Assembly: GCA_913048295.1 (NCBI GenBank)
Contig: CAJWWK010000014.1
Location: forward strand, 1 to 47,454
Direction: 5' to 3'
From: an uncultured Dehalococcoidia bacterium
GTDB lineage: Bacteria; Chloroflexota; Dehalococcoidia; Lucifugimonadales; Lucifugimonadaceae
Length of the DNA stretch: 47,454 bases
The notes below the pieces were generated by a model that was given only the letters and a program-made list of their open reading frames with translations, had not been told where the DNA came from and did no database searches. Positions 43,812 to 45,757 of this stretch are shown in pieces. A program made the position numbers and the translations under genes. Numbering within the stretch: the first letter of the stretch is position 1; every line of letters starts with the position of its first letter.

Positions 43812-44106
43812 TCTTTTTTCTCCTTGTCCATTACCTTTAGTCGGTTCTGTGGGATAAGAAACATGCGTGCTGGGATCGAGTTGTAGCGTTAGCGTTATTT
43901 GGTCCGGAAACATCGGATCGACGAAACATTCATCGTTCTTTGGGCAGCGGGCAATCCGGTCGGAATTTGGTGTGTTGGATTAATGTTGCAATCGGCATAA
44001 TCTCGTAATGTTGTTAATGTTCACCGACTGCGCAGATGGCGAGCGGTCTCGGTAGAGAAGGTGGATGGTGGTGTCGGTGATTGGGCCGCTTCACGAGGAG
44101 AAAGAC

Positions 44107-44466
44107 TTGATCATTATCTACGATGCCGGATGTGGTGTGTGACGTGCTTTTGTCCGTTGGGTACAACGGAGTGGTCAGCATGATGATTCTAGGTTCATTC
44201 CGAACGATCCCGCTTCCGTAAGAGAAGCTTCGGACAACGTGGACCCGGTCGTTGCCGCCAGGACAATCGTCGCTGTTGACGACCAGGGCCGCGTTACAAA
44301 AGGCGCTCAGGCTGTCTTTTCCATAGCCGCTGATACCGGTGGAATAATCGGGTTCATTTCTCGCCTGCTGAAATATCGATTCGTCAGCTTATTGTTAGAA
44401 CCGGGCTATCGAGTATTTGCACGGCATCGGGGTCGGTTCGCCTGGTTTTTCCGGGAGTCCACCTAG
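44107..44466 (+). CDS. Candidate selenoprotein: DCC-family (DUF393) thiol-disulfide oxidoreductase with CxxU
   Basis: Read through one TGA (44140-44142), the frame gives 119 residues. It starts at TTG 44107, which has GAGGAGA (44095-44101) five bases upstream. Its beginning is MIIIYDAGCGV-U-RAFVRWV. DCC-family proteins normally start with YDGDCGxC followed by xxxVxW, so the UGA is at residue 12, the second redox cysteine. The C-terminal part (VVAARTIVAVDDQGRVTKGA, GGIIGFISRLLKYR, GYRVFARHRGRFAWFF) matches the family to its end, with no other stop or shift. A perfect 7-bp hairpin follows the UGA. A simple nonsense mutation is the alternative. An annotation from the ATG-like start downstream (44239) would give only a 75-residue tail. 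Confidence 0.7.
44153..44170 (+). promoter_or_regulatory. Putative bacterial SECIS hairpin
   Basis: TCCGTTG-GGTA-CAACGGA: a 7-bp perfect stem with a GGTA loop. The loop begins 17 bases after the UGA at 44140-44142. Bacterial SECIS elements lie just after the Sec codon within the coding region, have a G among the first two loop bases and place the loop about 16-37 bases from UGA. All three conditions are met. The hairpin is inside the coding sequence. Confidence 0.65.
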
Positions 44467-44748: not shown

Positions 44749-45757
44749 GGTTCTGTCAGAACTCAGCGTCGGGGGCAGAATAGCATCGTTCCTCAATAGC
44801 TGAGGAGACCTGCTCATGTCCTGCCCGCACTGCCTATCCACGTCCACGTCGAAGAGAAAACATCGGACCTCACTCGGCTACCGGACATATTTCTGTCCAG
44901 GCTGCGGGAGGTGCTTCAATGAGCGAACAGGTTCACCGTTCAACGATCTGCAGTTTCCGACGGACATCGTATTGCTGGCTGTCTTCTGGCGTTTGAGGTA
45001 CAAGCTCAGTTTCCGCGATGTGGCAGAGCTGCTCTTACAACGCGGGTTCGAGATCAGCCACGAGACGATCCGGGCCTGGGAGTTCCGCTTTGCACCGATG
45101 GTCAGCGAGAATCTTCGCTCCAAGCACCGCGGCACGGCCGGGGTCTCCTGATATTTGGACGAGACCTACATTAAGGTCAGTGGTCACTGGCGTTACCTGT
45201 ACCGTGCCATCGACCCAGATGGAAACCTACTAGATTCGATGCTCAGTGAGCACAGGGACAAGCATGCGGCACGTCGTTTCTTCTGTCGCCTACTGGATAG
45301 TGCAGGACGGAAGCCGTTGCGCCTGACCACTGACCGGCATCCGGCTTACACGAAGGCAATTCGCTGGATCGCCGGTCGTAAAGTTCTGCATCGACACAAT
45401 CAGTATTTGAATAATCGTATCGAGCAAGATCACAGATCGATCAAACAACGTTATTACCCGATGCTCGGCTTCGCCAAATTCGAATCAGCGAGCCGATTTT
45501 GCAGCGCGTTCGACAAATTGAGAAATTATCTGAGAGTCAGGGCAGTGGCCGGTCAACAAATATCAGCATCCAGTCGGAGAGAGATATTCACAGATAGGTG
45601 GTCGACTCTAATGACTGAGCTGTCGGCTTAAATACAGAGACCGATGATGTATTCAAGTCGATCTGTTTTCGACTGCAGCGCTGAGTTCTGACAGAACCCT
45701 CCTCGGCGAATGAGGAACGATGCTATTCTGCCCCCAACGCTGAGTTCTGACAGAACC
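44749..45757 (+). mobile_element. IS6-family-like insertion sequence
   Basis: A 1009-bp element. The left end from 44749 (GGTTCTGTCAGAACTCAGCG, then TCGGGGGCAGAATAGCATCG and TTCCTCA) is repeated inverted at 45757 with one mismatch over about 47 bases. Inside the right end a second copy of the outermost 20 bases is nested, ending at 45698, so the right terminus is partly duplicated. One transposase gene fills the element. Flanking target duplications were not identified. Confidence 0.85.
44816..45631 (+). pseudogene. IS6-family transposase with an in-frame stop
   Basis: A frame of 271 residues. The N-terminus has a zinc finger (CPHC ... CPGC, residues 3-27), then the helix-turn-helix RYKLSFRDVAELLLQRGFEI, then the DDE catalytic domain: D in LDETYIKV, D in TTDRHPAY and E in NNRIEQDHRS. 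A TGA at 45149-45151 interrupts it just before YLDETYIKV; Trp (TGG) is expected there. Both halves are in the same frame and otherwise intact, so it is a recent nonsense mutation. A re-start at TTG 45155 would give the catalytic domain without the zinc finger. GAGGAG precedes the ATG at 44816. Confidence 0.88.

Follow-up and report, generated by a model that had tools for sequence, protein, structure and literature searches.

We asked whether the TGA that interrupts a short reading frame in the window (the whole stretch of 47 454 nucleotides analyzed here) is a stop codon or a codon for selenocysteine (Sec). The evidence given below makes us highly confident that this locus, as judged from its sequence, is an intact gene for a predicted Sec-containing oxidoreductase of the DCC family (DUF393, PF04134) in Chloroflexota of the SAR202 cluster. 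The features of the locus are as follows:

44107–44466, plus strand: candidate DCC1-like (DUF393, PF04134) selenoprotein gene, encoding 119 residues when the UGA is taken as Sec, stop codon TAG at 44464–44466
44095–44101, plus strand: Shine–Dalgarno-like GAGGAGA, 5 nt upstream of the TTG
44131–44133, plus strand: Cys9 codon TGT, position 1 of the redox pair, encoded by TGA in relatives of the UxxU and UxxC forms
44140–44142, plus strand: UGA, putative Sec12, position 2 of the redox pair; TGA in 32 of the 36 UGA genes and TGC in the remaining 4
44143–44182, plus strand: SECIS-like hairpin with core stem 44153–44159/44164–44170 and GGTA loop 44160–44163
44143–44148/44177–44182, plus strand: lower stem of the hairpin, predicted by folding

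Direct inspection of the sequence showed that the window frame opens with a TTG codon at 44107–44109, and that the frame following the UGA stays open for 107 residues up to the TAG. Two relatives (L003/L004) carry GGGAG/AGGAG ahead of an ATG that is offset by one or two codons relative to the TTG in the alignment, and the TTG is the likely, predicted start of translation. A listing of open reading frames with translation table 11 gave only a 75-residue ORF starting at 44239 at this locus. When read through the UGA, the frame matched PF04134 (DCC1-like) with an E-value of 3.5e-16 (60.9 bits versus a cut-off of 27.8), with residues 3–111 of the protein covering positions 1–110 of the 113 in the profile. 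This was the sole Pfam family found for the protein at E ≤ 1, and the genome gave no DCC match other than the window gene at E ≤ 10. The DCC1-like family is characterized by a DxxCxxC motif, also seen in the Cys homologues studied here, and is predicted to have a thioredoxin-like fold and thiol-disulfide oxidoreductase activity. In the window protein D6, C9 and residue 12 form DxxCxxU, and D6, C9 and C12 were invariant over 34 alignment rows (U written as C), while the RWVQR stretch (R17, W18, V19, Q20 and R21) and N33 were invariant in the UGA relatives. Residues 13–44, encoded upstream of 44239, were likewise conserved in all UGA relatives. A sequence search for a solved relative found none, with a ribosomal protein as the best match (E=0.58).

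Immediately following the UGA, the core stem of the hairpin forms a perfect 7 bp helix that starts 10 nt after the UGA, with the loop 17 nt after it. Bacterial SECIS elements have an apical loop of 3–9 nt and an upper stem of 4–16 bp (PMC13188914, Fig. 2 legend), with a G in the first two loop positions, a distance of 16–37 nt from the UGA and a minimum free energy (MFE) of ≤ −7.5 kcal/mol (PMC13188914). The window hairpin agrees with these rules, having a 4-nt loop, 7 bp, GG, a distance of 17 nt and an MFE of −17.6 kcal/mol computed over the 42 nt immediately 3′ of the UGA. With the protein kept fixed, the stem score of the window copy was reached in 0.55% of 4000 synonymous shuffles, with the stem register picked after inspection of the sequences, and 1.1% of 1000 such shuffles folded at least as stably. 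The Shine–Dalgarno sequence and TTG, the UGA in place of the second redox Cys after the TGT at 44131–44133, the 107-residue continuation, the family membership, the hairpin with its loop and spacing and the lone 75-residue ORF had all been described in an initial annotation of the window, and each was found as described.

That annotation had also proposed that orthologues and signs of decay be examined. With regards to decay, other in-frame stops were absent from the window copy and the gene showed purifying selection, with a dN of 0.10 versus a dS of 1.08 over the 99 codons 3′ of the UGA when compared with its nearest relative (G188). Over the same 99 codons dN was lower than dS in six of seven gene pairs, the exception being G160 versus G086 (dN 0.023, dS 0.014), with only six differing sites. 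As for orthologues, a draw of 197 genomes at the order level gave a DCC match in 22, with internal TGA in 10, and all 76 genomes of the GTDB family of the window gave a match in 24. Residue 12 was encoded by TGA in 12 of these 24 genes, nine being CxxU and three UxxU (G166, G180 and G216), with the other 12 being CxxC; in G214, the second TGA counted was the terminal stop. The recurrence of UGA at the same residue in half of the family genes bore out that its placement at the redox position is beyond chance. The same UGA was found in the complete chromosome of an isolate, Candidatus Lucifugimonas marina JH1073 (G086, L085), which belongs to the SAR202 cluster of the Dehalococcoidia and shares its GTDB genus with the window genome. 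According to the accessible part of PMC10444878, the JH1073 genome was obtained from PacBio reads as one closed contig, and a sequencing error is therefore unlikely. Scanning genome contigs with patterns from the window-family forms gave nine loci, all in the family of the window.

UGA forms were also found outside this family. A draw of 400 genomes over the phylum gave a DCC match in 62, and besides the window genome 15 of the drawn genomes had internal TGA, all from a family labelled as another class (f82). In f82, 33 of 42 genomes had a DCC match (36 rows), and the 30 loci that were read, leaving out six match rows without a locus, comprised 14 UxxU, 4 UxxC, 6 CxxU and 6 CxxC genes, i.e. 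24 UGA genes. The CxxU reading of the initial annotation stood, while the UxxU and UxxC forms and the second class had not been foreseen. One f82 genome (G624) had a CxxC gene (L108) together with a second DCC match, at C178:9032-9361, with two TGAs.

Considering the 36 UGA genes together, all 53 internal stops were TGA and all were located at residue 9 or 12 (residue 9 in 21 genes, residue 12 in 32), with the frame open for at least 99 residues beyond residue 12. UGA retains its stop function elsewhere in these genes, as 24 of the 36 also terminate with TGA. In a tree of 57 proteins, built with masked redox states, no fewer than 11 state changes are needed to account for the four forms, with the firmly supported branches forcing fewer, 1 to 3 per state.

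We next compared the hairpins. In 18 of 18 genes (the 12 of the window family and the 6 CxxU genes of f82), a stem of 6 bp or more carries a GGTN loop at precisely 17 nt from the UGA, and in the 17 distinct sequences of these genes 102 of 102 cells of the 6-bp stem were paired. The outer pair occurred as CG in seven sequences, GC in six, UA in three and UG in one, and at the fourth pair both sides had changed once, in a compensatory manner. The resulting covariation score of 0.282 was equalled or exceeded in none of the 500 shuffles and none of the six slides, with four of the six pairs never varying because the RWVQR codons fix them. In the Cys homologues 40% of the cells of the same stem were paired (20 of 21 genes, leaving out the near-copy L075); part of this contrast is due to composition, as a number of the Cys controls came from A+T-rich genomes, and the cells are not independent because the family members are related. 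With looser scanning, 5 of the 21 Cys genes gave a hairpin of some kind, and the Cys gene L123 keeps a stem. The hairpin was hence conserved in the UGA forms and not in the Cys forms, in line with the proposal. Among the UxxU and UxxC genes of f82, 15 of 18 had an 8-bp stem whose loop follows codon 12 at a distance of 18 nt, and thereby codon 9 at 27 nt, and in L115, L121 and L133 (3 of the 36 UGA genes) the hairpin was absent in the expected register. Synonymous shuffles reached the observed stem score in 0.6–5.8% of trials for 33 of the 36 genes and in 21–33% for the other three, again with registers picked after inspection of the sequences and the rates uncorrected for this choice, and the folding energy of the whole region was unremarkable in 9 of the 36, with more than 30% of shuffles folding equally well.

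To be read as Sec, the UGA would need the Sec machinery, which the initial annotation had suggested looking for and which was indeed found. Profile searches of the window genome (G000; 2.43 Mb, 110 contigs, 89% complete) identified selB on C22 (323 bits versus a cut-off of 242), selD on C10 (362 versus 125) with one in-frame TGA, and selA on C56 (508 versus 268), the selA search covering the window genome only. A tRNASec at C36:2-89 had the loop CTTCAAC with anticodon TCA; it scored 45.3 versus the Rfam cut-off of 47 because the gene is cut by the contig start, and the remainder was identical, by eye, to the tRNASec of JH1073. ARAGORN made no call on this truncated gene. The genome hence holds selA, selB and selD over their cut-offs together with an end-truncated selC. 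Its SelD (C10:15984-16913, locus L135) reads ASCAG-U-AGK, which fits the UxxK motif of Sec-containing SelD (PMC13188914). An in-frame UGA was present in nearly all of the over-cut-off selD matches listed for the GTDB family.

Within that family, 55 of the 76 genomes had selB over the cut-off, including 12 of 12 UGA carriers versus 4 of 12 genomes with the Cys form (Fisher p=0.0013, indicative only, as these counts come from related genomes and are not independent). All 12 UGA carriers also had selD over the cut-off, and a complete tRNASec with a TCA loop was found in G086, G188, G160, G166, G192 and G180; a search of G114 and G136 gave no high-scoring tRNASec match. In f82, selB was over the cut-off in 34 of 42 genomes, including 19 of the 24 with a UGA gene and 5 of the 6 with the Cys form, and therefore does not separate the forms there. 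Five of the 24 UGA carriers (G631, G636, G628, G329 and G644) gave no selB match at E ≤ 1e-65, and of these G329 is 95% complete.

Three other explanations of the UGA were weighed against these data. A nonsense mutation could have introduced it into a Cys gene undergoing decay, or it could be a sequencing error in such a gene, and decay does occur nearby, since the IS240-type transposase 350 bp downstream is broken and has an in-frame TGA. However, decay would not be expected to place a UGA identically in 12 of the 24 family genes, among them that of an isolate with a closed genome, or to give stops that are TGA at two residues in 53 of 53 cases, and the low dN relative to dS and the covarying hairpin also argue against it, making this explanation very improbable. 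We hold it to be even less probable that some other amino acid, e.g. Cys or Trp, is inserted at the UGA, whether through near-cognate read-through, through a suppressor tRNA or because the code has changed. The identity of the residue at the UGA is here deduced from sequence, which gives such a reading some room, but termination with TGA in 24 of the 36 UGA genes shows that the code is not changed wholesale, the genome carries selA, selB, selD and a TCA tRNASec, and the UGAs are confined to two redox positions and are followed by a hairpin that fits the bacterial SECIS rules. The smallest probability of all, in our view close to nil, is that of a true stop, with an 11-residue peptide followed by a separate 75-residue protein from 44239; the ORF obtained by mechanical ORF calling is what this explanation predicts, but the Pfam domain spans the UGA and the conservation of residues 13–44 begins well ahead of 44239. 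A pseudogene, a separate downstream ORF and a changed genetic code were all rejected on this evidence.

In bacterial Sec decoding, SelB carrying Sec-tRNASec binds the hairpin. For the selenoprotein gene that we propose, translation would start at the TTG, the hairpin just 3′ of the UGA at 44140 would recruit SelB with Sec-tRNASec, and decoding of the UGA as Sec12 would allow the ribosome to complete the 119-residue protein. The D-x-x-C9-x-x-U12 site could then cycle between a selenolate/thiol and a selenenylsulfide form, whereas in the UxxU relatives a diselenide would be expected at the redox site, with one hairpin probably serving both UGAs. From the pattern of the stops, its conservation, the covariation and the machinery, all of them observed, we infer Sec insertion, this redox chemistry and a physiological role, for which the likeliest guess would be that of a small reductant or an oxidative-stress protein.

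Searching the selenoprotein literature together with DUF393 or DCC-family thiol-disulfide oxidoreductase gave no match. A 2026 review counted 119 families and subfamilies of prokaryotic selenoproteins (PMC13188914); the DCC family is missing from its Table 1, as are DCC and PF04134 from its main text. DCC was also absent from the accessible parts of the texts of PMC9312934, PMC12013277, PMC2398784, PMC1088965, PMC5029168 and PMC9402790. A search of NCBIfam 20.0 was negative for the window protein and L005 and yielded only a weak unrelated match for L095, and the single mention of DUF393 in a heliorhodopsin paper gave no lead. Within these sources, we regard it as a previously undescribed, predicted Sec form of an established protein family as well as a new bacterial selenoprotein family, and the remark in the initial annotation that no DCC selenoprotein was known holds in the literature searched, with PMC12013261 and Deng et al. 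2026, outside its scope, being sources that may hold candidates. We consider it probable, with good though lesser confidence than for the window gene itself, that this selenoprotein family, absent from the lists consulted, occurs in two Chloroflexota classes, that both of its redox positions exchange Cys and Sec (CxxC, CxxU, UxxC and UxxU), and that one hairpin acts on both UGAs where two are present at a spacing of nine bases, its loop being 26–27 nt from the first and 17–18 nt from the second.

Compared with the DCC1-like family (PF04134) as known, all four forms had a full-length domain match and the D-x-x-C/U-x-x-C/U motif, but the UGA forms differ in having predicted Sec at one or both redox positions and a SECIS-like hairpin. 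SelW-like, AhpD-like and other CxxU selenoproteins (PMC13188914, Table 1) share the CxxU motif, a bacterial SECIS and the expected SelB-dependent decoding, but belong to separate domain families. A UxxU motif is known in a Prx-like thiol:disulfide oxidoreductase (PF00578), in the metal-binding NF041115 and in the FmdB family (PMC13188914, Table 1), which likewise have two Sec two residues apart; these are other families, while here CxxC, CxxU, UxxC and UxxU occur within the DCC family. The Sec-containing SelD (TIGR00476) of the same genome, also with an in-frame UGA (UxxK), served as a positive control, but is a well-known selenoprotein with an unrelated fold.

The bacterial selenoproteome would thus gain a family, and SAR202, abundant in the ocean, a kind of selenium-dependent protein, with the gene being testable as it is present in the closed genome of an isolate. 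No word beginning with 'selen' was found in the accessible part of the text of the cultivation paper (PMC10444878). Having four Cys/Sec states in one short protein provides a natural series for the effect of selenium at each redox position, and the UxxU genes with one hairpin raise the question of how a single SECIS element can direct decoding at two neighbouring UGAs. Gene prediction with the standard code truncates these genes, as seen in the ORF listing for this locus, and DCC genes in Sec-using genomes are therefore probably missed.

Finally, we compared the surroundings of the gene. Over 12 sequences (the window slice, L002, L007 and L083–L091), the DCC gene was the sole notable shared neighbour, except within genus g9 and in the near-twin pair L084/L085, and function is therefore not readable from context in the genus of the window. 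The IS240-type DDE transposase at 44816–45631 (plus strand) consists of two same-frame ORFs split by a TGA at 45149–45151; the redox-cysteine logic is inapplicable to this protein, so that its TGA looks like ordinary decay, in contrast to that of the DCC gene. In f82, a YndJ-like gene was located upstream in 6 of 26 loci and a TMEM164-family gene downstream in 13 of 26, with these Pfam names taken from L113 only, and this arrangement in part of the second class is a possible functional lead. At L113 (587–2576), a UxxU DCC gene is located between the genes for the YndJ-like and TMEM164-family membrane proteins.
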